Below are positions 16,567 through 48,688 of a DNA stretch of 64,000 nt, one piece after another. The stretch is from an uncultured Thermoguttaceae bacterium. Lineage in GTDB: Bacteria; Planctomycetota; Planctomycetia; Pirellulales; Thermoguttaceae. Within the stretch, counting starts at the first letter, position 1; each line of letters starts with the position of its first letter. The translations under genes were made by a program, and so were the position numbers. The stretch covers positions 1 through 64,000 of the forward strand of contig CALFBP010000027.1 in assembly GCA_937951625.1 (NCBI GenBank). The letters run 5' to 3'. The notes beneath the pieces were generated by a model. The model searched no databases and had not been told where the DNA came from. It was given only the letters and a program-made list of their open reading frames with translations.

Positions 16567-16590
16567 ATTCGATCACCCAGTCAAGCCGCA

Positions 16591-16719: not shown

Positions 16720-16977
16720 ATGCAAACAGGCCGGGTTTTGGGAACCGCGACGGCGACAGTCAAACACCCGTCGATGGAAGGCTGGAAGCTGCTGGTGGTG
16801 CAGCCCTACGGCCCCGACGGTCACACGCCTGACGGTGACCCCATCCTGGCCGTCGATGCCTTGGGGGCCGGGACAGGAGAGGTGGTGATTGTCTCCAGCG
16901 ATGGCAAGGGTACCCAGCAACTGTTGCGAAGCGAGACCACGCCCGTGCGCTGGTCGGTGATCGGAATCGTGGATTGA
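16720..16977 (+). CDS. BMC-P (EutN/CcmL) pentameric vertex protein 2
   Basis: An 85-residue EutN/CcmL protein (MQTGRVLGTATATVKHPSME, LLVVQPYGPDG, ILAVDALGAGTGEVVIVSSD, VRWSVIGIVD). It is the shortest of the three paralogues and close to the family minimum. Its TGA stop overlaps the next gene's ATG by one base (TGATG at 16975-16979), indicating translational coupling with the RpiB-like protein. Confidence 0.95.
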   Translation: MQTGRVLGTATATVKHPSMEGWKLLVVQPYGPDGHTPDGDPILAVDALGAGTGEVVIVSSDGKGTQQLLRSETTPVRWSVIGIVD

Positions 16978-17705: not shown

Positions 17706-17831
17706 TTCGGTTGAAGAGGACGACGACGGCCTGAGAACCAAGGCGGCGATCGGACGCGGTGCCGCATCGGACGGAAAAAGCCCGTGTGGCTTCCGCCAGG
17801 CCAAGGTACAGAATGTGGAGCAGCGGCTCTC

Positions 17832-18140
17832 ATGCGTATTGGCGAGATCATCGGCACGGTGACGCTGAACCGGTGGCACCCCAGCCTGGCTGGGGGGCGA
17901 TTCAAGCTGGTCGTGCCCCTTTCGTTGGCAGATTTGATGGGCGAAGGCAGGAAGCCGGCCGAAGAACTGACCTTATATGACGAGTTGGGGGCGGGCATGG
18001 GATCGCGCGTGGCCTTCAGCGAAGGCCGCGAGGCCGCCCAGCCCTTCCACCCCGAAGTTAAGCCCATCGACGCTTATTGTGCCGCAATCCTCGACACTGT
18101 GAACATTGTGAACCCCGCGGAGGAAAAACCGCCAAGGTAG
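17832..18140 (+). CDS. BMC-P (EutN/CcmL) pentameric vertex protein 3
   Basis: A 102-residue EutN/CcmL-like protein: MRIGEIIGTVTLNRWHPSLA, then FKLVVPLSLADLM, LTLYDELGAGMGSRVAFSEG and a C-terminal CAAILDTVNIV strand. It is the most diverged of the three vertex proteins, with a lengthened central loop (MGEGRKPAEE). The ATG at 17832 gives the standard N-terminus; the in-frame ATG at 17784 does not. Three BMC-P genes beside two BMC-H genes and no BMC-T gene match the shell composition known for the planctomycete-type compartment. Confidence 0.92.
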   Translation: MRIGEIIGTVTLNRWHPSLAGGRFKLVVPLSLADLMGEGRKPAEELTLYDELGAGMGSRVAFSEGREAAQPFHPEVKPIDAYCAAILDTVNIVNPAEEKPPR

Positions 18141-18258
18141 GATCGTGAAGGCCGGAACGGAGCTGGGATTCAGGATTCCACGTCCCATTTTGGGCGTTGC
18201 GTCCCCTTGGTCGCGCCTGCCTTCACCCCCGCCCACCTGAAGTGAGCGAGAAAACGCC

Positions 18259-19146
18259 ATGGTCAATCTTCACAAGATCAAGCAAGAGATTTGCGAAATC
18301 GGCGACCGCCTCTACAAGAAAGGTTTCGCCGCGGCGAATGACGGCAACATCAGCTATCGCATCAGCGACAAAGAGGTTGTCTGCACTCCCACGCAGATTT
18401 GCAAAGGCTTCATGAAGCCGGACGACCTTTGCGTGGTGGACATGGAAGGAAACCAGATATCCGGGCGGCGCAAACGGACCAGCGAGATCAAGCTACACCT
18501 GGCGATCATGAAGGAGCGGCCGGAGATCAAATCAGTGGTTCACTGTCATCCGCCGCACGCCACGGCGTTCGGCATTGCCCGGGAACCGGTGCCGCAATGC
18601 GTCCTGCCCGAGGTCGAGGTTTTTCTCGGCGACGTGCCGATCACGAAGTACGCCACGCCAGGCGGGGAGGAATTCGCCTCCACCGTGCTTCCCTTCGTTC
18701 ACAAGACGAACGTCATCATTTTGGCCAACCACGGGACGGTGAGTTATGGGGAGACCGTGGAACGGGCCTATTGGTGGACCGAAATCCTCGATGCCTATTG
18801 CCGCATGTTGATGCTGGCCCGGGGACTTGGCCGCATCAACTATTTCACGGAGCCGGAGGCCCGGGCGTTGTTGGACCTCAAGCAGCAATGGGGGTTCAAG
18901 GACCCACGAAATGAACTCCAGAATTGCGACATCTGCGCCAACGACGTATTTCGCGAGAGTTGGAAGGCCAGCGGCGTGGAGCGGCACGCATTTCAACCGC
19001 CCGAGTCGTATCGTCGCCAGCCAGCCCCCAACAATCCCGGTAACCCGGCGTCCGATGCGGAAGCCCTTCAAGCCACGCCGGAGCAGGAGGCGCTGATTCA
19101 GGCCATCACCGACCGGGTGGTTGCGGCGCTGAAGAACAGAGCCTAG
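18259..19146 (+). CDS. class II aldolase (fuculose/rhamnulose-1-phosphate type) with C-terminal encapsulation peptide
   Basis: A 295-residue zinc-dependent class II aldolase/adducin-family enzyme. It has NDGNISYR (28-34), the catalytic Glu76 in TSEIKLH, zinc ligands His95 and His97 in VHCHPPHA and His158 in LANHGTVSYG. Cleavage of L-fuculose- or L-rhamnulose-1-phosphate gives DHAP plus L-lactaldehyde, the substrate of the dehydrogenase. After a Pro/Asn-rich linker (about 247-265) the last 25 residues (PEQEALIQAITDRVVAALKN) form an amphipathic helix typical of a C-terminal encapsulation peptide. It is the last recognised gene of the operon; no lactaldehyde reductase follows. Confidence 0.95.
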   Translation: MVNLHKIKQEICEIGDRLYKKGFAAANDGNISYRISDKEVVCTPTQICKGFMKPDDLCVVDMEGNQISGRRKRTSEIKLHLAIMKERPEIKSVVHCHPPHATAFGIAREPVPQCVLPEVEVFLGDVPITKYATPGGEEFASTVLPFVHKTNVIILANHGTVSYGETVERAYWWTEILDAYCRMLMLARGLGRINYFTEPEARALLDLKQQWGFKDPRNELQNCDICANDVFRESWKASGVERHAFQPPESYRRQPAPNNPGNPASDAEALQATPEQEALIQAITDRVVAALKNRA

Positions 19147-33856: not shown

Positions 33857-34885
33857 CTAGTTTTTGGGACGAAGGCAAGCAATCAAATCCGCTTCCAGCG
33901 CATCCCAGTCGATCGGTGTTTCGCGCACGATGACTTCCAGTCGGCTATCGCGGCGGTAAGCGACGAACGCTGATTGGAACTCGCGAGCGGAGCGATTCAC
34001 GAGAATCCACTCCTCTCCGATCCGAAACACGCCCTTCAACCGTTCGACGTCGAAACCGCCCACGATGACTTCGAGCAGACGGTCCTCATCGAACACGTCC
34101 TCGGGCGAGAAGATCCAGCCGCAGGCGCGATGCTCGCGGTTACCGCTGTACTGCCGATAGGGGCGGCCCGGCGAAAGAAAGCCAGGCTCCAGGCTGGCAA
34201 GCTGCATCGGTCGATGCGTGTGCGTGGAGTCATGGCTCTGCGCGTGCCACAGGGGAAACAAGGGCGTGCTCAGCGGATCAGCGGGGATATCCAACCATGC
34301 AGGTTCGAGTTCCCCTTTTTTGACCATGGCCACAAGCTGTTTGGAGGGAAATAGGGAGGTGGCCCATCGCGCAAATCGTTCCATGGTTTCCTTGCCGGTC
34401 AGATCGGTCTTGTTGGCCACCAACACGTCGGCCAAGTGGACCTGGTCCTGAAACGTGGGCGAGAGGGCGTATGGTTCGTCCAGTCGCCGCGGATCGACCA
34501 GGCAGATCGTGGCCCGTACTTCCACCGACTTGCCGAGGGGGGGCTTTCGCAGTACATCGAGCATTCGCCACGGATGGCCCAAACCGGTTGTTTCAATGAG
34601 CAGTCGCTCGGGCCGGGCTTGTCGAAGGATTTGAGCAACCGCGACATCCATGGGCAAACCCGCACTGCAACATAAACAACCTCCGGCAACTTCGCGAATC
34701 GCGACGCCATCGCCCGACGCCTCGCCAAGGGCCACGTGGTCGATCGCGACTTCGCCAAACTCATTGACGAGCACCGCCCAACGGCCACCTTGCGGTCGTC
34801 GCCGCAGTAGATGGAGGATCGCGGTCGTCTTTCCGACGCCAAGATAACCAGTGATCAGATTCACAGGGATCTTCGAAGAAGCCAT
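33857..34885 (-). CDS. COG0523/CobW-family GTPase
   Basis: A 342-residue P-loop GTPase. It carries the Walker A ITGYLGVGKTT (11-21), the metal-binding CLCC (70-73) within EVAGGCLCCSAGL, the ETTGLGHP switch region and NKTD for guanine recognition. The CobW_C domain near the end (VEVIVGGFDVERLKGVFRIG region) is present. COG0523 proteins are metallochaperones or metallation factors for zinc, iron, cobalt or nitrile hydratase. The start at 34885 gives the family N-terminus; upstream in-frame ATGs add a tail without similarity. It diverges from the CobN-like operon, whose metal function it matches. Confidence 0.9.
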   Translation of the reverse strand: MASSKIPVNLITGYLGVGKTTAILHLLRRRPQGGRWAVLVNEFGEVAIDHVALGEASGDGVAIREVAGGCLCCSAGLPMDVAVAQILRQARPERLLIETTGLGHPWRMLDVLRKPPLGKSVEVRATICLVDPRRLDEPYALSPTFQDQVHLADVLVANKTDLTGKETMERFARWATSLFPSKQLVAMVKKGELEPAWLDIPADPLSTPLFPLWHAQSHDSTHTHRPMQLASLEPGFLSPGRPYRQYSGNREHRACGWIFSPEDVFDEDRLLEVIVGGFDVERLKGVFRIGEEWILVNRSAREFQSAFVAYRRDSRLEVIVRETPIDWDALEADLIACLRPKN

Positions 34886-35452
34886 GGCAAACAAGGTCAC
34901 TAGGATGAGATTTTCGAGTTGCCGGATAAGCATTGTTGGGAAATGAGACCAAGGTACAAACCCTAGGCCGCACCAGGAACGGGGCGTCATCGACGCTTGG
35001 CCCATTACTTCCGAAGCAGAACGCCCGCCGCTCGTGATCGATATCCCCGGCCATCGTTCCCAACAGTCCGCTCCCACAGTTCCCCGGCTTCGAAGGGAAG
35101 GAATGGTAGCCAAGCTCCGCCGGGAACGGAATCAAGCGCGAAAATCAGCGTGGAGTCCAACATCCTTCCCCCCTATCCCGCCGAGCAAGAGAGGGGCTCT
35201 GTTAGAGATTACCTGTAATTTAAGCGGATCATGGGCGTTTGCGTCAACTCATCCTCCCATGTTCGCCGAACCCAACGCGGCGGCGGTGCTCAGAAAGGCA
35301 TGATGCATCGCGGCCTCAACCAGTTCGGAAGTTTGGATCGCAACCACGCGCGTCGATGTTGGTGCCCGGGGCCCAAAGAAAGAAACGCCTTTGATTGGTT
35401 GGCGGTTCATTTCTTTTACCAAACATTTACCGAGAAAAAACCTCGGCGCTAC

Positions 35453-35481
35453 TTGACATGCAAATCTCACCTGCCTATATT
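35453..35481 (+). promoter_or_regulatory. strong sigma-70-like promoter of the CobN-like operon
   Basis: TTGACA at 35453-35458 and TATATT at 35476-35481 with exactly 17 bases between. This is the best promoter match found in the window. It drives rightward and would give a leader of about 265 bases before the DUF1559 ATG. Confidence 0.7.
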
Positions 35482-35489
35482 CATCCCAG

Positions 35490-35506
35490 ATGCATTTAAT
35501 ATGCAT
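35490..35506. promoter_or_regulatory. palindromic operator candidate (Fur/Zur-like)
   Basis: ATGCATTTAATATGCAT is a perfect dyad (ATGCAT, five bases, ATGCAT) nine bases downstream of the -10 box, so it covers the probable transcription start. It can be read as a 7-1-7 site TGCATTT-A-ATATGCA, the geometry used by Fur/Zur regulators. The operon ends with a Fur-family gene, which makes autoregulation plausible. Confidence 0.5.
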
Positions 35507-35536
35507 TCGCAATTAGCCCGGCGCCTTGTTATCTAA

Positions 35537-35585
35537 GCCGCCTGATGATGCGGCCTCGTGGGCAAAACGAGGCAGATTATGCCTC
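35537..35585 (+). promoter_or_regulatory. leader with competing hairpins
   Basis: GCCGC (35537-35541) can pair with GCGGC (35550-35554); GCCTCG (35553-35558) with CGAGGC (35568-35573); and GAGGCA (35569-35574) with TGCCTC (35580-35585). The second and third stems share GAGGC and cannot coexist, and the first overlaps the second by two bases. This is the layout of a switching leader, though no known riboswitch consensus is seen. Confidence 0.45.
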
Positions 35586-35721
35586 AACGCGAAAAGTTGT
35601 GCTCACTAGGTGGCGATGGGGTGAGGGGCTGTTGTTCGTCCAATGAATGGTCGCGAGCATCCACGGAAGTGGGGGGCTCCAAGGTGGTGCGCAAGGTTGT
35701 CCGGCTCGCGTGGCTCGAAGT

Positions 35722-35737
35722 GAGGCGATCATGCCTC
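35722..35737 (+). promoter_or_regulatory. hairpin just upstream of the DUF1559 ribosome binding site
   Basis: GAGGC, GATCAT, GCCTC forms a stem three bases before the G-rich ribosome binding site (35741-35747). It resembles the leader stem at 35569-35585, so pairing between the two copies is also possible. Confidence 0.4.
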
Positions 35738-35754
35738 GAAAGGGGGGGTGTACG

Positions 35755-36759
35755 ATGAAGGCTAGGGAACGAAACGGCTTTACGCTGGTGGAATTGCTCG
35801 TCGTGATCGCCATTATTGGCATTCTTATCGCGTTGCTGCTTCCGGCAGTGCAGGCGGCGCGGGAAGCGGCGCGGCGGATGAGCTGCAACAACAACATCAA
35901 GCAATGTGCCTTGGCAATGCACAACTATCACGATACTTACCGTTGCCTGCCGGGTTTTGATTCCTCGATTTTGACCAGCTTTTCGCCGCAGGCTAGGTTA
36001 TTGCCATTCGCTGAACAGTCGAGCCTCCACAAGCTAATTGACTACTCGAAGCCGTTGTTCGTCGGTGCGAGGGCAGACAATCGTTTGAATCCTGTACACG
36101 CCGCGGCGGCGCGGACTCGGGTACCGATGTTCCGCTGCCCTAGCGACGGTGAAAACGACATTTATACGGAGTATTTCGTGCAAGCGCCCGATGCTTTCGC
36201 GGGCAGCAATTACATGGTGTGCCTCGGTTCGGGTACAGGGACCTACTACGATCATCGCTCGCGCACGGATGGGGCCTTCTACCAGCTTTCGGCCTGCTCT
36301 TTCCGCGACTACTTGGACGGACTGAGCAATACGTTGATGTTTGGGGAATGCCTTTTGGGCAATCACCGCGATACGACCGGCCCCGCGCCGGAAGATCCCC
36401 TGCGTCAGGTGGCCGATACGAGGCTACCGGTGACGCCACCAGGCCTCGGCGGGCTCTCGAATCCTGATCTGACGGCCATCGTTGCCGCTTGCAATTCGTG
36501 GAAAGGGCTTCGGGGGTCGGGTTGGATCGTGGCAAAGTTGTATACCTCCACCTTCAACTGCTACATGCCTCCCAATACCCGAGTGCCCGATGTTTACCGA
36601 ATGGGCATGGGTTGGTTCGCCGCGCGGAGCAATCATCCGGGAGGGGTGAATGTGGGATTCGCTGACGGAAGCGTGCGATTTATTTCTCAGACGATCGAAC
36701 TGACGACCTGGCGGGCCCTGGGCAGCATCGCGGGGGGCGAGGTGGTGAGCAACTTTTAA
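35755..36759 (+). CDS. DUF1559 prepilin-like protein, first gene of the metal operon
   Basis: A 334-residue protein with a type IV prepilin N-terminus: GFTLVELLVVIAIIGILIAL, where the Gly preceding Phe is the cleavage site and Glu+5 follows, then PAVQAAREAARRMSCNNNIK typical of DUF1559. The H-x9-DG motif of the family is seen as HPGGVNVGFADG near the C-terminus. Planctomycetes have dozens of these pseudopilins, whose functions are unknown. The start follows a G-tract site. It opens the transcript that encodes the channel and chelatase-like proteins, so a surface metal- or tetrapyrrole-binding role can be proposed. Confidence 0.92.
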   Translation: MKARERNGFTLVELLVVIAIIGILIALLLPAVQAAREAARRMSCNNNIKQCALAMHNYHDTYRCLPGFDSSILTSFSPQARLLPFAEQSSLHKLIDYSKPLFVGARADNRLNPVHAAAARTRVPMFRCPSDGENDIYTEYFVQAPDAFAGSNYMVCLGSGTGTYYDHRSRTDGAFYQLSACSFRDYLDGLSNTLMFGECLLGNHRDTTGPAPEDPLRQVADTRLPVTPPGLGGLSNPDLTAIVAACNSWKGLRGSGWIVAKLYTSTFNCYMPPNTRVPDVYRMGMGWFAARSNHPGGVNVGFADGSVRFISQTIELTTWRALGSIAGGEVVSNF

Positions 36760-36958
36760 TCCCTCTTGCAGGCAGCTCAAGGCGTTCTCGGTCCGCGGAA
36801 TGCGGCGATTCTTCGGGCGTTCGATCTCGTGTTCGTCGTGCAACAGCTCGCCTGGCGGTCCTGGCCTTATGGGTGAAAGCGCAGGCGAGGTGAAAGATCG
36901 CTCGAAGGCTTGAATTCAGCCGGCATAGCGCCTGGGGTGTCGTAACACGAGTGGCTCC

Positions 36959-37774
36959 ATGGGGACCCTGTTCGAGACATTTTGGAAATCAGGAGTTGCG
37001 ATCAACCGGGTGGCCGCGGACCACCCGGTCGGACTCTTTGTACTTGTCTTGGCGGTACTCGCTTTCGGTCATGCGATCTTGGGTTTAGGCCGTACTCGGC
37101 AATGGATCGTCCTGCCGGTTGTTTTCGGATTGACGGCGCTGGGGGGATTCCTATTGAATCCGTTTGCCGACGCCAACACACCGGCGGATATTCGCCGATT
37201 GTTCACGAGCTACGAAACATTGACTCTGCTATGTATCGCGCAGGTCGCGTTGCTTGGTGCATCGCTAGTTTTCGGCCTCCGGCTCGATGGCGTAAGCCTC
37301 GAGGGGCGAGATGATTTTTATCCGGCGTTGTGCCTTGCCATCGTCCACACGGTCCCCACGCCGATCGTGCTGATCGCCATGCTCTTGCTGGAGCAGGGCT
37401 ACTTGGCGGGACTGCCAGGGGCCCGGCCGGAATGGGTGGGGCGCAACGTGGGACTGTTCGTGGCTAGCGTCTTCACGGCGGCCTCCGCAGTGGCCATGAT
37501 CGTGCCAAGCCGTTGGCTTGCACTGCCGCATCATGTGCTGTCGATTGCACTTCTGATGGCCAGTATCTTCCTTCCCACATTGGAAGCCCCCTTGCCGACC
37601 CCAATGTTTTATGTCGATGTCGCATCGCTCTGGCCTCTGTGGCAGATCGCCTTGGCCTTTTTGGCGATCGTGCTTCTGGGATTGTGTCGGCTACGTCGGC
37701 CACAGTGGCTTCAACCGAACCATCTTGTCGAGTGGTTTACCACTCTGGCTTCCGCTCGGAGACAATCATCGTAA
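36959..37774 (+). CDS. polytopic inner-membrane protein of the CobN-like operon
   Basis: A 271-residue protein with about seven hydrophobic segments (e.g. VGLFVLVLAVLAFGHAILGL, LCLAIVHTVPTPIVLIAMLL, NVGLFVASVFTAASAVAMIV, LWQIALAFLAIVLLGLCRLR). No recognised signature. It starts 199 bases after the DUF1559 gene and ends eight bases before the ExbB-like gene. Its position matches the unassigned permease-like member of CobN/ExbB/DUF2149 clusters of Bacteroidota, from memory. It is a candidate substrate channel. Confidence 0.75.
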   Translation: MGTLFETFWKSGVAINRVAADHPVGLFVLVLAVLAFGHAILGLGRTRQWIVLPVVFGLTALGGFLLNPFADANTPADIRRLFTSYETLTLLCIAQVALLGASLVFGLRLDGVSLEGRDDFYPALCLAIVHTVPTPIVLIAMLLLEQGYLAGLPGARPEWVGRNVGLFVASVFTAASAVAMIVPSRWLALPHHVLSIALLMASIFLPTLEAPLPTPMFYVDVASLWPLWQIALAFLAIVLLGLCRLRRPQWLQPNHLVEWFTTLASARRQSS

Positions 37775-37782
37775 GGTGCCGT

Positions 37783-38445
37783 ATGGGAATCTTGACGAAC
37801 GTCTTTTATTTGATTTCCACCTCGTTGCTGATCCCCGTGATGTTGGCATTGCTGTGGTGCCTTGCACGGGCGTTGTTGCTGGTTGGTCGGACGTTTCGGG
37901 AGTATTTGGAGCGAATGACGCTGAAAAGGCGACTCGAGGCCTTTTCCGTGGCGATCGAGGAGGGCCAAAAGATGATCCACGAGTTGCCGTCCCAAGGGGT
38001 GCTAGCGCGAAGCCTGCTTCGGCTCGTGGAGGTCGCCAATAACGAGGTCCTGGTCGAGAGGGTCGTTCGCGAGGCGGAGTTGGCATGGGAAGCGGGGTTG
38101 GAGCGGCTTCGCGTCCTCGTGCGATTTGGGCCGGCGCTGGGGTTGATGGGGACGCTCATCCCCTTGGGACCTGCCCTGGTGGGACTGGCTGCCGGTGATC
38201 TGGAGACCATGTCGAATAACTTGGTGATCGCGTTTGCGACCACCGTGGTGGGCTTGTTGGTCGGTCTGCTGGCCTCGGGCATGTTGAGTGTGAAGAAGGC
38301 GTGGTATCATGCCGACGCGATTCTACTCTCTTTTGCCGCAAACCGCCTCGCACAGCTTGCTGATGGAAACTCGAGAGCACCAGGCACGGATGGGCAAGGC
38401 CGTGAACTGGCGAGCTTGCTCTCGAATGTTCCCGCGGAGAAATGA
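37783..38445 (+). CDS. MotA/TolQ/ExbB-family proton channel protein
   Basis: A 220-residue protein with an N-terminal membrane segment (about 5-28), a cytoplasmic loop with helices (ARSLLRLVEVANNEVLVERV), and the C-terminal pair of membrane helices GLMGTLIPLGPALVGLAAGD and NLVIAFATTVVGLLVGLLAS, which match the ExbB/TolQ/MotA channel core. It would couple the proton gradient to transport or to movement of the CobN-like protein. The start at 37783 is eight bases after the preceding stop. Its stop is four bases before the DUF2149 ATG. Confidence 0.88.
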   Translation: MGILTNVFYLISTSLLIPVMLALLWCLARALLLVGRTFREYLERMTLKRRLEAFSVAIEEGQKMIHELPSQGVLARSLLRLVEVANNEVLVERVVREAELAWEAGLERLRVLVRFGPALGLMGTLIPLGPALVGLAAGDLETMSNNLVIAFATTVVGLLVGLLASGMLSVKKAWYHADAILLSFAANRLAQLADGNSRAPGTDGQGRELASLLSNVPAEK

Positions 38446-38449
38446 CGCG

Positions 38450-38830
38450 ATGTTCCCCGTTTTCAGCCGCAAGCGGCACGTCCCGCGCTCCTTTCTGCAA
38501 GAAACATCGGACGGCGATTCCAATCCGCTGGCTGGTGTCGCCAACTTGTTCGACGTGGCCATGGTGTTTGCCGTGGCCTTGATGGTGTCGCTGGTTTCCT
38601 ATTTGCGCCTGCCGGCGCTGTTGCGAAGTCAGGATTACACCGTGATCACCAATCCCGGAAAACCCGATATGGAGATCATCGTCAAGGAAGGGCAAGAGAT
38701 CAAACACTACGAAGCCACGGAAGCCATGGGCGTTGGTTACGGTGAACTGTTGGGACAGGCCTATCGCTTGCCAGACGGTCGGGTGGTGTACGTTCCTGTC
38801 GACAAGGAGCGATCGCGCGCGAAGGAGTGA
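38450..38830 (+). CDS. DUF2149-like single-TM protein
   Basis: A 126-residue protein with NPLAGVANLFDVAMVFAVAL followed by MVSLVSYLRLP, the one membrane helix and the preceding motif that define DUF2149 (which pairs with ExbB/MotA-like channels, in the place of ExbD/TolR). The C-terminal part is soluble (PDMEIIVKEGQEIKHYEATE). An in-frame ATG at 38426 would overlap the channel gene; the site GGAGA before 38450 supports the shorter form. Confidence 0.8.
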   Translation: MFPVFSRKRHVPRSFLQETSDGDSNPLAGVANLFDVAMVFAVALMVSLVSYLRLPALLRSQDYTVITNPGKPDMEIIVKEGQEIKHYEATEAMGVGYGELLGQAYRLPDGRVVYVPVDKERSRAKE

Positions 38831-38922
38831 TCTTGCGTGGTACTAACCCAGGCGAGGCAGGGCTGAGCCTTGCCAGGCGGATCGGGCCCGAAGTGAAACA
38901 CGGATCAAAGGGGAGCAGACTC

Positions 38923-41900
38923 ATGCTGCGGCGGATTGCGATCGTGACGCTGATTTTGTTGATGTGCGTCGGGGGAGGCCTGGCGGCCTACTACCGCTAT
39001 CTCCGCCCGGTTCGCGTGGCCGTTCTGCGATTTGATGATGTCGTGTGGACCGAGTGGGAGGCCGCAGGGCGGCGAGCCGGCTATACTGTTCACCGCTATG
39101 ACCACGATGAACTCGCCTCCGCGCCTTTGGCCAATTACAACTTCATCGTCATTCGGGCGATGGGATTGGAACTCGACGAAGATCAGATCGCCAACCTTCA
39201 GCGCGCACGGCAGAGGGGATCGCAGATCCTCTTCACGACCATCAGCGATCCGGAGGTGGAGAAATACTGCACCCTCGACGAAGAGCGGAAGCGCGTGGCC
39301 GCCAGCTATTTGAGTCATGGCGGTGTGGAGAACTTCGTCGGGCTGATGCATTATCTGGCCCACGAATTCGCAGGCCGCGACATTCGCGTGCCGCCGGTGG
39401 TGGAACGACCTCTCTCCGGGCTGTTTCACGTGGGAGGCCAGGTTTTCGAAACGCTCGACGCCTACGAGGCGTTTTTGGATCAACAATCTCCCCACGGGTC
39501 GAAGGATGCGTCCCGCGTGGCGATGGTCGGTCCTCTGCTCAAGCCCTTCAATGAACTTGATCGTAAGCCCGCCGAAGATGTCATTCGGGCCCTGGAGCGT
39601 CAAGGGATTCGGGTCTATCCGATCTTTGGGTCCGAGCAAACTGTACCGCTTCTCGAAAAGATCCGACCAGACGTGGTGATCGCCTTTCCCGTTGGCACGA
39701 TCGCACGGAGCGGCTCTCTGGTGGACCTTCTCACCCGGCTGAAGTGTCCTTGCGTAAGCGCCTTAAGTATTCCCAGCAGCTTGGAGGAGTGGTTGGCGGA
39801 TCCGCGGGGGTTGTCTGGTCCCTTCATGGATTTGACGATCACCATGCCGGAACTCGAGGGCGTCATCGAGCCGATCGCCATTACGGCGAGGACTCCCAAC
39901 GAGCGAAATATCCGCGTGCGCACCCCGATCGCGGATCGTGTACAGAAACGTCTCGCGCTGGTGCGGAATTGGCTGGAACTCCGCCGCAAAGCCAACTCCG
40001 AGAAGCGCTTGGCGATCGTTTATTACAAAGGCCCTGGCGAATCGACGCTGACCGCCGCCGGCCTTGAAGTCGCGCCGTCGTTATTCAATCTTCTCAAGCG
40101 ACTGGAGGCGGAGGGTTACGATTTGGGAGGTCAATTGCCCGACAGCGTGCAAGCCTTCTCTGACATGATCCAGCGCCGTGGCAGGACGATCGGGCAATGG
40201 GCGATCGGCTCTTACGAGAAGTTCCTGGAGGAAGCGCAGCCCGAATTCGTTCCGGCCAGCGACTACGCCCGTTGGTTCCGCTTGGCTCTTTCTCCCCAGC
40301 GACAGAAGGACATGATCGAATTGTGGGGACCTATTCCGGGCAAATCGATGGTGGCGGAACGCGACGGCGCGGCCCACTTGGTGGTCAGCCGCATCCGTTT
40401 GGGAAACGTGGTGATCATGCCGCAACCCACGGTCGGAGCCGATGGCGTGGATGAAGTGCAAGCCATCCACGGCACGGAGAAGGCGCCGCCGCACTTCTAT
40501 TTGGCCGCATATCTTTGGGCTCGCTACGGCTTCCAAGCCGATGCCATCCTTCATTTCGGCACGCATGGGTCGTTGGAATTCACCTATGGCAAGTCGACTT
40601 GTCTTAGCCGCGACTGCTGGCCGGACATCCTCATCGGCGACATCCCGCACATCTATCCCTACGTCATCAACAACGTGGGCGAGGCCTTGGTGGCGAAGCG
40701 GCGATCCAATGCGGTCATCGTCTCGCATTTGACACCTCCTTTTTCCGAGTCGGGAACGTACGGCGAACTGTCGCAATTGGCCGACAGGATCGACGCCTGG
40801 GAGGTTGCCGTGGACCCGCTACTCAAGGAGGAAACGCGCAAGACGATCACCCGCCTGGTCCAATCTCTTGACTTGGGGACCGACCTGGAAATCCCCCAAG
40901 ACGCCCTTCAGTCTCGCCTATTAACCGATCAGGAAATCGAACGACTTCGCGACTATCTCCACGCCTTGAGCAACGAGCGGATTACCGATGGGTTGCACGT
41001 GATCGGACGGTCCTACACCGACGACCAAGTGGTGACTACCTCCGCCCTGATGCTCAGCGACCAAGATCGGAATACCTTACTGACGGCAGTGGGTATGGAG
41101 CCCTCGCGGGAAAGTGAAGAAACCTGTCGCACGGTGCTGCGAGAGCTCGTCAGCGGTGTGGTTCATGGCAGGCTGACGCCGGAGGTAATCTTTCCGCAGG
41201 CCGAACTGAGGCAGCTTCGTGAAGCTCAGAAAAACAGCGTCGGTTCGATGCCGCCAAAGGCGGAGCGGATGCAGGCGCAGTCAGGGGCGATGCTGAAAGA
41301 CGCGCTGCCCGCCGACATGCCGAAACAAAAGACGCCCGCCGGGATGTCGGACCAGCAGATATCGGCCGGGGCGCCGATGCGAGATTCGAAAACGATGCGT
41401 TCGCATCTTGGTTCCCAGGAACCGCAGGACCAGACGGCGAAGCCCACTCCCGATCCGGCAGCCGCCACGGCCAGCCTGACTAGGCAGCCCAACGTTTCGC
41501 AGCCGGACCGCGGCAGCAGCGCAGCAACTGACACAGACGCTTTGCGATGGAACGTCTACGGTGATCAAGATCAGAAATTGGCATTCCTGAAGGTCTTAGA
41601 CAAGATCGCGCAGTACGCGCAAGGGCTGCGTGAGTCCCCTCAGCTCGAAATGGATCGCATCGTGGCGGCGTTGCGGGGCGAGTATGTTCCGCCTTCGTCA
41701 GGAGGCGATCCATTGATTAATCCTGACTCGGTGCCGACAGGCCGTAACCTTTATTCGATCAATGCCGAGCAGACGCCCACGCAGGAGGCGTGGGAGGTCG
41801 GGCGGAGACTGGCCGATGAATTGCTGGAGCAACACAAGGCAAAGACGGGGAACTATCCGCGCCGCGTGGCCTTCACGCTGTGGGGGGGCGAGTTCATTCG

Positions 41901-43275
41901 TGGCCGTGGGACCGCGATCGCGCAAATCCTGCACTTGATCGGAGTCCGTCCGGTCTGGAGCTCGCGAGGCCTTGTCAAGCAGGTCGAAATCGTTCCCTCC
42001 GAAGAATTGGGCCGGCCTCGGATCGACGTACTCGTCCAGACTTCGGGGCAATTCCGCGACGCGGCGGCCTCGCGAATCACGTTGATCGACGAGGCCATCC
42101 GGCGTGTGAGCGAACTTGGCGAAGAGCGGTTTGCCAATTATGTACGGGAAGACTCGACGGACGCCGAGATGCGACTCAAGAATCTTGGCTACTCCCCTAA
42201 GGAGGCCCGCGAGTTCGCCACTGCCCGAATCTTTGGGGCCGCCGAGAACCGGAGTTATGGCACGGGCATTATGGGCATGGTGGAAAAGGGCGACACGTGG
42301 CAACACGAGAAAGAAATCGCCGAACGATACATCGAAAACATGGGCGGTATCTACCGCGACGGCAACCATTGGGGCACTTACAGAAAAGGGCTGTTAGAAG
42401 TTCAGTTGCAAGGCACGGAAGTCGTTGTCCAGTCTCGTTCCTCGAACGTATGGGGCCCCCTGAGCCTGGATCATGTTTACGAGTTCATGGGGGGAATCAC
42501 TCTGTCCATTCGGGCGAAGACGGGAAAGGATCCCGTTGGGTATTTCAGCGATCTACGGGTTCGCGGGCAAGGCAAACTGACCACTTCGGTGCATGCGATC
42601 CGCGAAGAATTGCGGACGACGATTTGGAACCCGAAATTCCTAAGTGGCCGCCAACGCGAGGGGGCCTCCGCGGCCGGTTCCCTCACCGAGACGGTTCGCA
42701 ACCTCTACGGTTGGACCGTGATGCAACCCGCGACCATCACGCAACAAATGTGGGACGAGACGTATCGCGTGTTCATCGAAGATAAGCACCAACTGAAGAT
42801 GCGCGAATTCTTCGAGAAGAAAAACGTCTTCGCCCTGCAAGACTTGACTTCGATCATGTTGGAGACGGCTCGCAAGGGCTATTGGAAGCCTCGTGCGGAG
42901 GTCCTCCAGCGTTTGGCGGCATTGCACGCCGAGCTGGTGGCTTCTTTCGGCGCCGCTTGCTCCTACGAAACCTGCGGCAACCGCAAGCTCCAAGAGTTCG
43001 TGACGGCGCAGCTCAATGCACCCGGTAACGAAGTGGCTCCCGAAGTACTGGACTCCTACACAACGTCGTTGGCTGCGGCCCTCCAATCCTCGCGACCAAT
43101 GCCAGAGGTCGAGGGGATCGAGCTGGAGGAGACCTGGAAACAATTACTGCGAAACGAAAGTATCCAGAACCCGCTTCTCACAGTGCTTCTTGCCGCCGCC
43201 ATCGTGTTGTTTGTCGTGCTCTTGCTGCTCATGGGGTTGATATATCGCGACGCCGCCCAAGCAGGTACACTATAA
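38923..43275 (+). CDS. membrane-anchored CobN/ChlH-family chelatase-like protein (HmuS-like candidate)
   Basis: A 1450-residue protein. Membrane helix 1 is at residues 4-26 (RIAIVTLILLMCVGGGLAAY) and a second at about 1418-1441 (PLLTVLLAAAIVLFVVLLLL), so the chelatase body faces one side of the membrane. The CobN/BchH core is clear: HFGTHGSLEFTYGKSTCLSR at about 545, followed by WPDILIGDIPHIYPYVINN and VIVSHLTPPFSESGTYGELS. An insertion of about 110 polar residues (767-876; Met/Gln/Pro/Ser-rich) interrupts it. CobN in cobalamin synthesis is soluble and needs CobS/CobT, which are absent. Membrane-anchored CobN relatives next to ExbB and DUF2149 genes (HmuS type) act on heme or metal uptake. 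Confidence 0.88.
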   Translation: MLRRIAIVTLILLMCVGGGLAAYYRYLRPVRVAVLRFDDVVWTEWEAAGRRAGYTVHRYDHDELASAPLANYNFIVIRAMGLELDEDQIANLQRARQRGSQILFTTISDPEVEKYCTLDEERKRVAASYLSHGGVENFVGLMHYLAHEFAGRDIRVPPVVERPLSGLFHVGGQVFETLDAYEAFLDQQSPHGSKDASRVAMVGPLLKPFNELDRKPAEDVIRALERQGIRVYPIFGSEQTVPLLEKIRPDVVIAFPVGTIARSGSLVDLLTRLKCPCVSALSIPSSLEEWLADPRGLSGPFMDLTITMPELEGVIEPIAITARTPNERNIRVRTPIADRVQKRLALVRNWLELRRKANSEKRLAIVYYKGPGESTLTAAGLEVAPSLFNLLKRLEAEGYDLGGQLPDSVQAFSDMIQRRGRTIGQWAIGSYEKFLEEAQPEFVPASDYARWFRLALSPQRQKDMIELWGPIPGKSMVAERDGAAHLVVSRIRLGNVVIMPQPTVGADGVDEVQAIHGTEKAPPHFYLAAYLWARYGFQADAILHFGTHGSLEFTYGKSTCLSRDCWPDILIGDIPHIYPYVINNVGEALVAKRRSNAVIVSHLTPPFSESGTYGELSQLADRIDAWEVAVDPLLKEETRKTITRLVQSLDLGTDLEIPQDALQSRLLTDQEIERLRDYLHALSNERITDGLHVIGRSYTDDQVVTTSALMLSDQDRNTLLTAVGMEPSRESEETCRTVLRELVSGVVHGRLTPEVIFPQAELRQLREAQKNSVGSMPPKAERMQAQSGAMLKDALPADMPKQKTPAGMSDQQISAGAPMRDSKTMRSHLGSQEPQDQTAKPTPDPAAATASLTRQPNVSQPDRGSSAATDTDALRWNVYGDQDQKLAFLKVLDKIAQYAQGLRESPQLEMDRIVAALRGEYVPPSSGGDPLINPDSVPTGRNLYSINAEQTPTQEAWEVGRRLADELLEQHKAKTGNYPRRVAFTLWGGEFIRGRGTAIAQILHLIGVRPVWSSRGLVKQVEIVPSEELGRPRIDVLVQTSGQFRDAAASRITLIDEAIRRVSELGEERFANYVREDSTDAEMRLKNLGYSPKEAREFATARIFGAAENRSYGTGIMGMVEKGDTWQHEKEIAERYIENMGGIYRDGNHWGTYRKGLLEVQLQGTEVVVQSRSSNVWGPLSLDHVYEFMGGITLSIRAKTGKDPVGYFSDLRVRGQGKLTTSVHAIREELRTTIWNPKFLSGRQREGASAAGSLTETVRNLYGWTVMQPATITQQMWDETYRVFIEDKHQLKMREFFEKKNVFALQDLTSIMLETARKGYWKPRAEVLQRLAALHAELVASFGAACSYETCGNRKLQEFVTAQLNAPGNEVAPEVLDSYTTSLAAALQSSRPMPEVEGIELEETWKQLLRNESIQNPLLTVLLAAAIVLFVVLLLLMGLIYRDAAQAGTL

Positions 43276-43401
43276 TGGATTCCCTCAAGTGAATCGTCCG
43301 GCGGCATCCCGTAAACCACGGCGTAGCTGGCAAAGGAGGGATCTGCGGTCGCCTGTTTCGAAAATTCCGGGGATTACTTCGTCCGGGATACATCAGAATC
43401 G

Positions 43402-43905
43402 ATGGTGGGTTCTGGCGTGAGCAACAAACGATCGAAGGCATCGGCAAATAAGTCCAGCAGTTCGCAGGACGTAGGTCTGGAGGCGATACTTCTTGCCGCT
43501 CACAAATTACTCCGCGACGCCGGTCTGCGTTGTACGCCGACTCGCTTGGCAGTGCTCCAAAATTTGGTCGCAAGCAGCAAGCCCTTGAGTCACGAGGAAG
43601 TCGCGTCGAAGCTGATGCCCCTCGGCTTCGATCATACCACGGTCTACCGCTGCCTGGTCGATTTAGCGGAGGCCGGTGTCGCCAAGCGGCTCGATCTCGG
43701 GGATCACGTCTGGCGTTTTGCCGTCCCTGATGGCCACCTGTTACACTCGGAAGAACATCCCCACTTCATTTGCGTCGTGTGTGGCAAGGCAATCTGCCTG
43801 CCGGACGTGACCGTTCAATTCGTTGGCCCGAACAATAAATTGCCGGCGGTTCTATCGGGAGTCACGGAGGTGATCCTCAAGGGCCGTTGCGAAAGCTGTC
43901 GCTGA
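43402..43905 (+). CDS. Fur-family metal-responsive regulator
   Basis: A 167-residue Fur/Zur-family repressor. The winged helix is RCTPTRLAVLQNLVASSKPL then FDHTTVYRCLVDLAEAGVAK. The dimer domain has HPHFICVVCGK (His119, His121, Cys124, Cys127) and a C-terminal CESC (163, 166), forming the structural Cys4 zinc site. The regulatory metal (Fe, Zn or other) cannot be told. The start at 43402 precedes a basic, Ser-rich tail; GTG 43417 is an alternative. It ends the CobN-like operon, 126 bases after its stop, and may bind the palindrome at 35490. Confidence 0.92.
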   Translation: MVGSGVSNKRSKASANKSSSSQDVGLEAILLAAHKLLRDAGLRCTPTRLAVLQNLVASSKPLSHEEVASKLMPLGFDHTTVYRCLVDLAEAGVAKRLDLGDHVWRFAVPDGHLLHSEEHPHFICVVCGKAICLPDVTVQFVGPNNKLPAVLSGVTEVILKGRCESCR

Positions 43906-44107
43906 AGCCTGATAGGGGCTCCCAACGCGGCCTTCGAGGCGGCTTGCGAACGCGAGAACTCGAATTGGTCCCAAAACACTGCGAGAGTGGCTAACGCTTG
44001 GCGAGACTCCTCCCGCCCGTCGAAGCCGCCGCTCTTGCCCCTTATTTCTCCCAAGCGGATGACTGTCTGGCGCGTTTTGGACGCCTTTCGGAGTCGACGC
44101 AGGGCGA

Positions 44108-46522
44108 TCAGTATAGCAGGCAAAGAGTTCGTCGCTGCCGGAATTGTTCCAACTCTACCTGCCAGGTGGCTTCGATTTCGGGCAGGTCCTTGCCGTCGAG
44201 GAGTGCCTGAAGCGTCGCGGCGTGGCCGAGGAGTCGGTCATAGTCCTTGGCGGCCCAAGCGTCGGGGTGGTTGCGCCGCAATTCGCAAGCGATGGCCAGG
44301 CCCATGCGGACCGGCTCCAGGGCATTGCGATCGGTGATCGTGATGCGAAGGCCTTGGCATTTCTCATTGGCGAACTTGCTGGAGTTGGGCGTGAACTCGA
44401 CCGGTTCAAAGCGCACGCCCGGCAGGTTTCGCCGGTTCAAGGCCTCGGCCAGGCGTGGACCGTCGAGCCAAGGGGCGCCGAACAGCTCGAAGGGCGTTTC
44501 GGTGCCGCGGCCAACAGAGAGATTGGTCGTTTCCAAAAGTCCCACGCCGGGATAAAGGATCGCTGCCCGAAGGCTCCGCATATTGGGCGAGGGATTGATC
44601 CAGCGCAATCCGGTGGTGTCGAAGTAATCCTCCCGCCGCCAGCCTTCCATGCGAACCACCTCCAACGCTAGCCCCAGTTTCAACTCCTGATTGAACATCG
44701 TGGCCAATTCGCCCACCGTCATCCCGTGGCGGATCGGCAGGCGGTGGAAGGCCACGAACGACTCACGGCCGGGGTCGAGCACGGGCCCGGCCACGTCGCG
44801 GCCATTGATCGGGTTGGGGCGGTCGAGCACCACGAACCGCAGCCGCTGCTCGGCCGCTGCCTGCATCGCATACCCCATCGTCGAGATGTAGGTGTAGAAG
44901 CGGGTCCCGATGTCCTGGATGTCGAACACCAAAGTGTCCATCCCTTGAAGCATGGCGGCCGTCGGTTTTCGCGTCTTGCCGTAAAGGCTATGGACGATGA
45001 CGCCCGTTGCTGGGTCGCGGGTGTCGGGGATATTGGCGATATCGAGTTTCCCGTGCAGGCCGTGTTCCGGGCTGAAAATGGCCGCCAACGTGACGCCAGG
45101 GGCCCTATGAAGGAGTTCCGCCGTGCTGACGCCCCGGCGGTTCACGCCCGTGTGATTCGTGATCAACCCCACCCGCCGCCCCTGCAATTGCTTGAAACCG
45201 TCGCGCTCGAGTACGTCGATGCCGGTGAGGACGCCTGCCGGGCGAACCGCCTTCTCCGGGCTTTGTCCTGAGAACGTCTTGTCGATTTGTCCCGTTTGTC
45301 CCGACATGCTTCCCAGATTGCGATCCCCCAGGGCCATGGGGCCGCGGTCGACGATCGCGTTGGCGGCGATCGTGCCGATGCGGCCGGCCAAAGGGTTGAC
45401 CGCGCCCTTGCCGTCCGGGTGAAGCCGGTTGCTGAGAAAAATCACGAACAGGTCCAGTTCAGGGTCGATCCACATGGCGGTGCCGGTGAACCCGCCGTGG
45501 CCAAAGGCCCGCGGAGAAAACGACTCCCCGCGATTCGACGAGTAGCCGGTGCGCATGTCCCAACCCAGTCCGCGCAGACCTCCGGGAATGGACTGCGGCG
45601 TGGTCATCAGGACGACGGTGTTCTCCTGAAGCACGCGGACGCCGCCATACGCCCCGCGGCCAAGGAGCATTTGAGCGTATCGGGCCAAATCCCGGGCAGT
45701 AGAAAACAGGCCTGCGTGACCGGCCACGCCGCCGAGGGCGAAGGCCCGCGGGTCGTGGACCTCGCCTTGAATCCAGGCATCGCCGCGCTTCTCGGTGGGC
45801 GCGGCCCGGCGACGCAACTCCGGCGAGGGCAAAAAGCCCGTCTCGTGCATTCCTAGCGGCTTGAAGATGTTTTCTTGGGCGAACTGGTCGAGTCGCTGCC
45901 CCGACACCCGCGACACCAACTCGCCCAAAACGAGATACCCCACGTCGGAATAAATGAACTTGCCGCCCGGCGGGGCAACCGGCTTCAAGGCCCAAAGGCG
46001 TTGGCGGGCCTTCTCGGGCCCGTCGCGGTAGTCGCTCAAAGGATTGTCGGCGATCAACCCACCTTGGTGCGTCAAGAGGTGCAGAGCCGTGATCTTGTCC
46101 TTACCGTTGGCGGCGAACTCCGGCAGGTAGACGGCCACGGGTTCTTCAAGCCGAATCTTTCCCCGCTCGGCCAAGATCATCACGCTGGTCGCGGTGGCCA
46201 CCGGCTTGGTGAGCGAGGCCAGGTCGAAAACCGTGTCGCACGTCATGGGCAGCGGCTCCGGTTGGACCTGGCGCAGCCCAAAAGCCTTCTCGAAAACGAT
46301 CTTCCCGTGGCGTCCGATGAGGACCACGCAGCCCGGCATTTTCCGCGAGGCAAGGGCCTCGTCCACCGCCCGGTCAATGGCCGCCAGTTGCCGCGAATCC
46401 ATCCCCGCTTCTTCCGGCGACGCCGAAGGCAGGTCCGGCGGCGACGCATGCAAGTACGTCCCCAGTATCATGGCCCAAAGGATGAGAGGAAAAGCCAACC
46501 GGGTTGGAATGATGCCGTCCAC
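44108..46522 (-). CDS. namZ: beta-lactamase-fold serine hydrolase fused to NamZ exo-muramidase
   Basis: An 804-residue exported fusion. The GTG at 46522 follows a G-tract site and gives a signal peptide (8-26, RLAFPLILWAMILGTYLHAS). Domain 1 (about 30-400) is a penicillin-binding/AmpC-type hydrolase: SLTK (103-106, SxxK), YSD (191-193, YxN position) and HGG (342-344, KTG position). Domain 2 (about 432-804) is DUF1343/NamZ (VGLITNHTGVNRRGVSTAEL, FSPEHGLHGKLD, DIQDIGTRFYTYISTMGYAM), an exo-beta-N-acetylmuramidase. It probably trims peptidoglycan ends and releases MurNAc for MurQ, encoded divergently. In Bacillus the equivalents YbbE and YbbC are separate genes. Confidence 0.9.
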   Translation of the reverse strand: MDGIIPTRLAFPLILWAMILGTYLHASPPDLPSASPEEAGMDSRQLAAIDRAVDEALASRKMPGCVVLIGRHGKIVFEKAFGLRQVQPEPLPMTCDTVFDLASLTKPVATATSVMILAERGKIRLEEPVAVYLPEFAANGKDKITALHLLTHQGGLIADNPLSDYRDGPEKARQRLWALKPVAPPGGKFIYSDVGYLVLGELVSRVSGQRLDQFAQENIFKPLGMHETGFLPSPELRRRAAPTEKRGDAWIQGEVHDPRAFALGGVAGHAGLFSTARDLARYAQMLLGRGAYGGVRVLQENTVVLMTTPQSIPGGLRGLGWDMRTGYSSNRGESFSPRAFGHGGFTGTAMWIDPELDLFVIFLSNRLHPDGKGAVNPLAGRIGTIAANAIVDRGPMALGDRNLGSMSGQTGQIDKTFSGQSPEKAVRPAGVLTGIDVLERDGFKQLQGRRVGLITNHTGVNRRGVSTAELLHRAPGVTLAAIFSPEHGLHGKLDIANIPDTRDPATGVIVHSLYGKTRKPTAAMLQGMDTLVFDIQDIGTRFYTYISTMGYAMQAAAEQRLRFVVLDRPNPINGRDVAGPVLDPGRESFVAFHRLPIRHGMTVGELATMFNQELKLGLALEVVRMEGWRREDYFDTTGLRWINPSPNMRSLRAAILYPGVGLLETTNLSVGRGTETPFELFGAPWLDGPRLAEALNRRNLPGVRFEPVEFTPNSSKFANEKCQGLRITITDRNALEPVRMGLAIACELRRNHPDAWAAKDYDRLLGHAATLQALLDGKDLPEIEATWQVELEQFRQRRTLCLLY

Positions 46523-46582
46523 AAAAAGGCCCCCCGTTTGCAAGAATGGCCACCTCACACGGTTCCACGTTATCCGACGACG

Positions 46583-46611
46583 ATGACACGAGTTTGTGGT
46601 GAGCATATAAT
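46583..46611 (+). promoter_or_regulatory. promoter of murQ
   Basis: ATGACA at 46583-46588 and TATAAT at 46606-46611 are 17 bases apart and 28 bases before the murQ ATG. It lies in the 117-base divergent region shared with the NamZ fusion gene. Confidence 0.65.
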
Positions 46612-46639
46612 ACGGGCCGAATCGGAAAGCTCGCAATCC

Positions 46640-47557
46640 ATGAACAGCCTGGGGCACTTGACCACCGAGGGCCGCAATCCCGCCTCGGAAGAAATCGACC
46701 GGATGTCGGCCCTCCAGATCGCGCAGTTGATCAACGCCGAGGACGCCACCGTGGCGGCGGCCGTGGCCACGCAATTGGAGGCGATCGCGAACGCGATGGA
46801 GGTGATTGCGGACCGGTTGCGTCGAGGGGGGCGGCTGGTCTATCTGGGGGCGGGGACGTCGGGCCGATTGGGCGTGCTCGATGCCTCCGAATGCCCGCCG
46901 ACTTTCAATTCCCCGCCCGGACAAGTGATCGGTTTGATTGCGGGCGGCGCCCAAGCCTTGACGAGCTCCATCGAGGGGGCGGAGGATCATCCCGAGTTCG
47001 CCGTGGAGGACCTGAAGGCGATTTCGTTCTCCTCCGCGGATGTCTTGGTCGGCATCGCCACCAGCGGCCGCACGCCGTATGTGTTGGGCGGACTCGCCTA
47101 CGCCCGGCAACTAGGGGCTTTCACCATCGGCATCGCCTGCAATCGCGAGGCATCGTTGATTGCGTACGTGGACCTGGCAATCACGCCGATCGTGGGTCCC
47201 GAGGTCATCAGCGGCTCGACCCGCATGAAGGCCGGCACCGCCACCAAAATGGTGTTGAACATGCTGAGCACCGGCGCCATGGTGCTGCTCGGCAAGACGT
47301 ATGGCAACCTGATGGTCGATCTTCAGGCCACCAACAGCAAGCTTGTGGAGCGGTCGCGGCGGATCGTCTGCACGCTGACTGGATGCTCGCCTGCGGAAGC
47401 CGAACAAACGCTGGCCCGCTGCAACGGCGAGGTCAAAACGGCGATCGTGGTCCTGCGTTGTGCCCTTGCTCCCGAGGACGCCCGCCGGCGTCTCCACCAG
47501 GTGGGCGGCCACCTTCGCAAAGCCTTGGAGCCGTCGCGTTGTGAGCGGATGGCTTGA
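46640..47557 (+). CDS. murQ: N-acetylmuramic acid 6-phosphate etherase
   Basis: A 305-residue MurQ. It has YLGAGTSGRLGVLDASECPP (SIS fold, phosphate binding), the EGAEDHPEFAVEDL helix bearing the catalytic Glu, GIATSGRTPYVLGGL, and STRMKAGTATKMVLNMLSTG, the etherase signature. It cleaves MurNAc-6-phosphate to GlcNAc-6-phosphate and D-lactate. MurNAc would come from the divergently encoded NamZ fusion and be phosphorylated by the next gene's kinase. Length and motifs are complete. Confidence 0.96.
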   Translation: MNSLGHLTTEGRNPASEEIDRMSALQIAQLINAEDATVAAAVATQLEAIANAMEVIADRLRRGGRLVYLGAGTSGRLGVLDASECPPTFNSPPGQVIGLIAGGAQALTSSIEGAEDHPEFAVEDLKAISFSSADVLVGIATSGRTPYVLGGLAYARQLGAFTIGIACNREASLIAYVDLAITPIVGPEVISGSTRMKAGTATKMVLNMLSTGAMVLLGKTYGNLMVDLQATNSKLVERSRRIVCTLTGCSPAEAEQTLARCNGEVKTAIVVLRCALAPEDARRRLHQVGGHLRKALEPSRCERMA

Positions 47558-47665
47558 CAAGGGCGGTTTCGCCTGCCGGCTGCCTTGGCTTTTTTGCCGA
47601 AGACGTCGAAATCGTAGGGTGTTCCCGAGTTCCCCAGGCATGGATCGTGATCGGTAAGCCAAGCG

Positions 47666-48688
47666 ATGCTGGACTTCACGGAGTCGGACTCGATGCTCTC
47701 GTGCGACGATTTGGTGCTGGGCATCGACGGCGGTGGAACCAAGACCGCGGCGTGGATCGCGTGGTGTCGGCCTGACGGCGAGGTGACGGTGGTGGGCCGC
47801 GGGGAGGCCGGAGGCTCGAATCCCCAAGCCGTCGGCATGTCCCAAGCCTTGGAAAACTTGGGCTTGGCCATCGAGGCCGCGCGAGGCCAAGTAGACGCTA
47901 ACCGCGATCCCCTGGCGGCGGCCGTGCTCGGGGTGGCTGGTTCCGATCGGACCGAGGTGCGCGCATCCCTCCTGCGATGGGCCGAAGAACGAGCAGTCGC
48001 CCGGCAGTTCCGCGTGGAACACGATGCCTTGCCGGTGCTTGCCGCCGGTTCCGTGGAACTTTGGGGCGTGGCCTTGATCTCGGGAACGGGCTCCTTCGCC
48101 TTCGGACGCAATACCCAAGGTCAGACCGCCCGCGCCGGCGGCTGGGGGTTCCTCCTTGGCGACGAGGGCAGCGGCTACGCCATCGCCCGAGCGGGGCTCC
48201 AGGCGGCATTTCGGGCCAGCGATGGGCGGGGGCCGCCGACGCGCTTGCTCAGCGATTTACTCTCCCGGCTGCAATGTGCTCAGCCCACCGACCTTGTCCC
48301 TCACCTGTATCGCTTTGCCAATGAGCCGGCCTCAATCGCTGCCCTGGCGCCGTGGGTGTTCGAGGCCGCCTTGGCCGGCGATGCCGTTGCCGAAGCGATC
48401 GTGGCCACGGCCGGCGACGAACTGGCGGCGATGGTGGCTGCCGTCGCGGCACGGCTGGGATTCAACAAGGAACCGTTCCCCGTGGCCATGGCGGGTGGCG
48501 TGCTCTTGGGCAACCCGCCGTTGACCGAGGCACTTCACGCGAGCTTGGCCGCCCGCGGCCTGCGGGTCTCGACGCTGACACCCGTCCCGCAGCCCGTGGT
48601 GGGCGCTGTGCGGCTGGCCGCCCAGCTTCGCGCAGAAGGTCGGCTCCTCGATCATTCCAGTGCCGATGAAGCCGTGCCCGAGCCTTAA
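47666..48688 (+). CDS. BadF/BadG-type N-acetyl sugar kinase (probable MurNAc/GlcNAc kinase)
   Basis: A 340-residue ASKHA kinase: LVLGIDGGGTKTAAWIAW (phosphate 1), ALISGTGSFAFGRNTQGQTA (phosphate 2), GGWGFLLGDEGSGYAIARAG (the GGWG..GDEGS signature of GlcNAc/MurNAc kinases) and AMAGGVLL (adenosine loop). It follows murQ by 108 bases. No phosphotransferase system is nearby, so this kinase is the likely source of MurNAc-6-phosphate. GlcNAc specificity is equally possible. The ATG at 47666 is used; 47693 is an alternative. Confidence 0.88.
   Translation: MLDFTESDSMLSCDDLVLGIDGGGTKTAAWIAWCRPDGEVTVVGRGEAGGSNPQAVGMSQALENLGLAIEAARGQVDANRDPLAAAVLGVAGSDRTEVRASLLRWAEERAVARQFRVEHDALPVLAAGSVELWGVALISGTGSFAFGRNTQGQTARAGGWGFLLGDEGSGYAIARAGLQAAFRASDGRGPPTRLLSDLLSRLQCAQPTDLVPHLYRFANEPASIAALAPWVFEAALAGDAVAEAIVATAGDELAAMVAAVAARLGFNKEPFPVAMAGGVLLGNPPLTEALHASLAARGLRVSTLTPVPQPVVGAVRLAAQLRAEGRLLDHSSADEAVPEP

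Follow-up and report, generated by a model that had tools for sequence, protein, structure and literature searches.

What does a CobN-like chelatase do when it is anchored in a membrane and encoded beside an ExbB-like channel in a planctomycete, and which partners serve it where no TonB-dependent receptor is encoded? The question is raised by a gene cluster in a 64-kb stretch of DNA from an uncultured Thermoguttaceae bacterium, the whole of which is called the window here. A first-pass annotation had described five genes in close order, for a polytopic membrane protein (T), a channel protein (U), a DUF2149 protein (V), a CobN homologue (S) and a Fur-family regulator. An ORF check found all five open, on the plus strand and in this order (Table 1). 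T and U are 8 bp apart, U and V 4 bp, and V and S are either separated by 92 bp or overlap by 4 bp if the alternative GTG start of S at 38827 is chosen, an operon-like spacing from T to S. Two features had gone unmentioned, the likeness of T to HmuT and a DUF1559 gene with a prepilin-type N-terminal methylation motif that lies 200 bp upstream of T on the same strand. The DUF1559 gene is preceded by a sigma-70-like promoter match, the only one in 35100-44000, where shuffled sequences gave 2.7 on average. The COG0523/CobW-type GTPase gene further upstream is a possible metal-homeostasis neighbour; relatives of it were found near locus L003 and near the Prevotella hmu locus L039.

Table 1. Features of the chelatase cluster and its upstream flank in the window
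Feature	Coordinates	Strand	Evidence or remark
COG0523/CobW-type GTPase	33857..35113	-	PF02492 8e-43, PF07683
Sigma-70-like promoter match, TTGACA-17-TATATT	35453..35481	+	11/12, consensus only, weak
DUF1559 / SBP_bac_10 protein	35755..36759	+	PF07596 9e-58; PF07963 5e-8
T, polytopic membrane protein, putative divergent HmuT	36959..37774	+	271 aa, no Pfam family
U, MotA/TolQ/ExbB-family channel, HmuU-like	37783..38445	+	PF01618 4.3e-9
V, DUF2149 protein, HmuV-like	38450..38830	+	PF09919 2.3e-29
S, HmuS-family class I chelatase homologue	38923..43275	+	1450 aa, PF02514 5e-301
HFGTHG motif of S	40552..40569	+	superfamily catalytic His, equals HmuS His538
Low-complexity insertion of S	41212..41560 (approximate limits)	+	at the position of the HmuS Met-rich insertion, domain IV
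LSLDHVYEFMGG signature of S	42460..42495	+	HmuS Asp1208, His1209, Glu1212
Fur-family regulator	43402..43905	+	PF01475 5e-11

The Fur gene had been regarded as the end of the cluster. It does adjoin S in the window, but no similar Fur-family gene was found at the other loci. With no Fur neighbour at related loci and a Fur-box-like pattern at chance level, Fur was rejected as a part of the system. Two other stretches of the window were observed in passing and read from their sequence alone. Directly beside the cluster, 44108-48688 holds a Beta-lactamase/DUF1343-type ORF, a MurQ-like etherase and an N-acetylglucosamine kinase-like gene, possibly a peptidoglycan recycling set. Consecutive ORFs at 11214-19146 resemble a DeoR-type regulator, phosphate propanoyltransferase, acetate kinase, aldehyde dehydrogenase and class II aldolase; together they suggest a bacterial microcompartment locus of the planctomycete (PVC) type, serving the use of fucose or rhamnose.

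The proposed kinship of S to HmuS was borne out by the best match among solved structures, by the signature motif and by a fully supported clade. Among PDB entries HmuS (9d26) scored 927.6 bits, ChlH 384 and CobN 380, and the alignment to HmuS runs end to end (residues 51-1468 of 1482). In a tree of 65 sequences S falls inside a clade of 30 together with Bacteroidota HmuS (support 1.0), and within it into a subclade of 26 (support 0.996), all planctomycete except L004, whose phylum is uncertain. The motif alignment covered 45 CobN-like proteins, most of them encoded at DUF2149-linked loci: LSLDHVYEFMGG was found in S, its planctomycete relatives, L045 and Bacteroidota HmuS, while other CobN-like lineages have DND-, SNHH- or SNKY-type motifs at this position. 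The split protein of L046 carries LSLDHVYEFMGG too, and remoter family members show the variants LSLDHVYEF, RLDHVYEF and KLDHIYEF with Asp, His and Glu unchanged. With the CobN and ChlH subunits of CobNST and ChlHID, S shares the PF02514 fold and the HFGTHG motif, but it is about 545 bits closer to HmuS, it carries membrane anchors, and neither CobT nor CbiC accompanies it. From its sequence S is thus assigned to the HmuS family and not to the cobaltochelatases of the CobN type. It is the only PF02514 protein of its genome, which is 97.9% complete. The hydrophobic anchors noted earlier at the N- and C-terminal ends are both present.

In the numbering of Bacteroides thetaiotaomicron HmuS (PMC12583661), all residues of the catalytic cleft are kept in S, namely His538, Glu577, Ser1067, Ser1199, Trp1202, Asp1208, His1209 and Glu1212. 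Two positions differ, with Gly for Ser1014 and Ser for Gln1198; both are predicted propionate contacts, and the exchange is shared by the planctomycete relatives throughout the clade. At the site-1 heme, Met79 and Gly80 are kept and three residues are changed (H254V, R256T, Q299L), so that of the two axial ligands, Met79 and His254, only the former is present. Both ligands occur in the relatives L002, L004 and L006; in others they vary. The insertion in domain IV has 7 Met in 143 aligned residues (4.9% against 2.2% overall), a weak enrichment, and most planctomycete relatives have an insertion there without Met enrichment. His254 is a published defining feature of HmuS. S is therefore best described as a divergent HmuS-family protein, placed by phylogeny and catalytic residues. 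HmuS-type proteins of about 1450-1520 aa also stand alone, with no T, U or V nearby, at L122, L125, L127 and L134, and genome G485 has a second HmuS-type copy in addition to an S-T-U-V cluster (L124, L135).

The membrane partners point to the same family. T has about seven hydrophobic segments, and hhalign matched it to a profile of Bacteroidota HmuT (216 columns, E 7.6e-5, probability 62), by which it is identified as a distant HmuT; its structure prediction was of low confidence, with a pLDDT of 51 from one sequence or from five. A DUF2162 protein holds the place of T at L041 and gave no alignment to Bacteroidota HmuT. U occurs beside V and S at nearly all loci. Asp35 of V, in the stretch NLFDVAMVF, is present in 97% of 60 V proteins and occupies what we take, from likeness in sequence, to be the position of the membrane Asp of ExbD. 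Homologues of HmuT, HmuU and HmuV hence adjoin S in the window cluster.

In the hmuYRSTUV operon of Bacteroidota (PMC12583661, PMC10100974) the same four proteins are encoded, in the order S-T-U-V instead of T-U-V-S. Both systems have the catalytic residues, the HFG(T/A)HG motif, the LSLDHxxEFMGG signature and two membrane anchors on S, and neither has CobS or CobT in the cluster. The window differs in that HmuY-like and HmuR genes are absent from the cluster, and in S by the loss of His254 and the weak Met-rich insertion of the B. thetaiotaomicron protein. A DUF1559 gene is found instead of the receptor genes, in a genome that encodes neither TonB nor a TonB-dependent receptor. The absence of CobS and CobT, previously noted for the cluster, holds for CobT across the genome: CobT (PF06213) and the corrin ring protein CbiC/CobH (PF02570) had no match in the own genome or in six relatives.

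The missing receptor had been noted at the locus and can now be extended to the genome. Searches covered the own genome (G000), two relatives with a matching cluster (G238, G350) and one with another cluster type (G389), and none of the four had a PF00593 receptor or a TonB_C (PF03544) match. All other DUF2149-positive genomes searched encode at least one TonB-dependent receptor. At 97.9% completeness a receptor could still be missed in this species; G238, a single-contig assembly as is G389, agrees on the absence. Without receptor and TonB, any uptake route must be TonB-independent. FeoB is present in the own genome in a single copy.

The gene in the place of the receptor belongs with the cluster, as the conserved neighbourhood shows. 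All 14 planctomycete HmuS-type clusters whose operon and flanks were available (window, L002, L003, L006, L050, L055, L056, L124, L128-L133) have a DUF1559 gene no farther than 2.2 kb away. Ten have it directly upstream and on the same strand, at 4-438 bp or, in L130, overlapping an ORF that was called too long; in two it is 305 bp downstream and in two 1.6-2.1 kb upstream. The window holds no other DUF1559 gene, and 79 kb of unrelated sequence from relatives contained one. Planctomycete genomes carry 74 and 68 DUF1559 paralogues (PMC2754498, PMC10632474), from which we estimate a same-strand copy within 500 bp upstream at well under 1% of random places; the 14 loci are related and not independent. 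Cluster-linked proteins have the prepilin-type N terminus and SBP_bac_10 domain of the PF07596 family at large, but fall mostly into two supported subfamilies tied to the CobN-like de-chelatase module, clade B with the protein of the window (0.997) and that of L050 and L055 (0.99). Unlinked paralogues fell outside these two, but few of them were sampled, which is the main weakness of this result. No extra His/Met/Cys heme-binding signature was obvious in the cluster-linked proteins. At L003 (1862-2272), L050 (10689-11123), L055 (15030-15449) and L056 (14449-14931) the DUF1559 gene is adjoined by a gene for a lipoprotein-like protein of about 140 aa without Pfam family, no copy of which turned up at the window cluster. 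The pili-like fibres of planctomycetes, which arise from crateriform pits, bind macromolecules (PMC5394234); together with the prepilin-type N termini this makes a role of DUF1559 in capture or delivery a reasonable, if tentative, suggestion. As a separate observation, a CobN-like lineage with a TENFEYQG motif (L119, L120, L121, L066) has the order U-V-S and a divergently oriented DUF1559 gene 60-330 bp away, and no TonB-dependent receptor nearby.

Taken together, we hold it to be the more probable reading, by a modest degree, that the cluster encodes a TonB-independent HmuTUVS de-chelatase for a tetrapyrrole, probably heme, which is energised by U and V and has a DUF1559 partner. In vitro and with NADH, HmuS extracts the iron of heme, so that protoporphyrin IX and Fe(II) are formed (PMC12583661, PMC13227078). 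The module would reside in the planctomycete inner membrane, with S anchored at both ends and its body outside the cytoplasm, where it would take the metal out of a metallo-tetrapyrrole; heme and its iron are the most likely case. The Fe(II) set free could then enter through the single FeoB. U and V may form a proton-driven stator of the ExbB/ExbD type that acts most likely on S and/or T rather than on an outer-membrane receptor, and its work could be a conformational part of the de-chelation or the transfer of the tetrapyrrole through T. The pseudopilin-like DUF1559 protein would be the dedicated extracytoplasmic partner, replacing receptor and hemophore for capture or delivery. Published models let HmuU and HmuV power HmuR with TonB, or see HmuTUV as an inner-membrane complex (PMC13227078); the presence of T, U, V and S without TonB or receptor favours the second model, with U and V acting on T and/or S. 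A narrower version is offered tentatively and is rather doubtful, namely that in TonB-free planctomycetes S (and T) is driven directly by proton flow through U and V, a task that falls to ATPases in other class I chelatases, and that tetrapyrroles are captured by a pseudopilin-like DUF1559 surface protein instead of a TonB receptor and hemophore. Against a heme de-chelatase stand the partial loss of site-1 ligands, the exchanges Q1198S and S1014G, the weak Met insertion and the lone S of some relatives.

A rival reading has the same module working on another natural substrate, a metallo-tetrapyrrole such as chlorophyll or an algal breakdown product. It would fit that the site-1 ligands vary among planctomycetes while the catalytic cleft stays, and that the two predicted propionate contacts are changed clade-wide. 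Fur and FeoB of the bacterium itself point to iron, as does a gene for a ferric-siderophore reductase (SIP) close to the L055 cluster, with a homologue by sequence in L056, and we rate the other substrate as improbable. To the same low degree we expect that an unrecognised transporter of the outer membrane is what U and V energise, as ExbB and ExbD do with TonB, and that DUF1559 is an incidental neighbour. Both proteins are ExbB/ExbD-like, and other planctomycete CobN-like clusters (L049, L051, L057, L059, L064, L070, L072, L075 and others) have a TonB-dependent receptor directly upstream in the place of DUF1559. L004 also has a receptor upstream and lacks a DUF1559 gene. TonB_C and the receptor family were, however, unmatched in the three genomes with the cluster, and the adjacency of DUF1559 is far above background.

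Action of S on a corrinoid, in cobalamin salvage, de-chelation or cobalt insertion, is very unlikely, even though some hmu-like operons are said to serve cobalamin (PMC10100974) and related CobN-like/DUF2149 clusters do have cobalamin riboswitches. Such riboswitches were found at nine scanned loci (L041, L048, L054, L057, L059, L060, L064, L070, L084), all of the separate S lineage with the DND-type motif at the position of the HmuS signature, and L041 adjoins BzaF. None was present in the window or upstream of the scanned planctomycete HmuS-type clusters, and CobT and CbiC are both missing. The confinement to the DND lineage among the scanned loci fits the published remark and leaves the window on the other branch. 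Clusters of the riboswitch type, e.g., that of Trichlorobacter pGLOV01 (L041), share the U-V-S module with the window but have the DND-motif S, a DUF2162-type membrane protein, the riboswitch and a receptor. The riboswitch of L002 lies behind S and ahead of a TonB-dependent receptor. This receptor was rejected as an HmuR, since its own cobalamin riboswitch precedes it; it is probably outside the heme module and more likely a corrinoid receptor. Two observations on other lineages are added. Riboswitch loci of the DND-motif CobN-like/ExbB/DUF2149 lineage mostly have a receptor and probably serve corrinoid acquisition. On a Runella plasmid, hyp genes of hydrogenase maturation surround a CobN-like/ExbB/DUF2149 cluster (L044, 1593-11171) that also encodes a TonB-dependent receptor and a membrane protein of the urease-accessory type; this may be the module in a nickel version.

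A substitution of S for ferrochelatase, running forward, is highly improbable: G000 has HemE (C40:34692-35687) and no match to HemH (PF00762), but S would be located outside the cytoplasm by analogy to HmuS, HemH is kept in relatives with HmuS-type proteins (e.g., G474, G238, G350, G333), and it is unmatched in G396, G399, G406, G407 and G411, which have no PF02514 match either. We therefore do not connect the missing match, be it a gap, a loss or a replacement, with S, and a replacement of HemH by HmuS-type proteins was rejected, as the losses of HemH are scattered and unlinked to them.

Earlier work placed the complete hmu operon in Bacteroidota alone and assumed that HmuU and HmuV power the receptor HmuR (PMC10100974, PMC12583661). 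Among the papers searched, none was found that connects HmuS to planctomycetes or DUF1559 to TonB; some of the hits listed were soil and community studies. With the present cluster and its relatives, the HmuS family reaches a second phylum and gains many new sequences, which sort general residues, those of the catalytic cleft, from the non-general site-1 ligands and Met-rich insertion. Roles that had been joined in the operon come apart in a natural genome that has T, U, V and S and neither TonB nor receptor; U and V must serve otherwise, probably S or T. Specific subfamilies of DUF1559, which is the largest of the unexplained paralogue families in planctomycetes, are linked to a metal/tetrapyrrole module, and by this link to a defined module their function becomes testable. 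If U and V drive S directly and DUF1559 captures the tetrapyrrole, this would be the first role for a part of this family of about 70 members.
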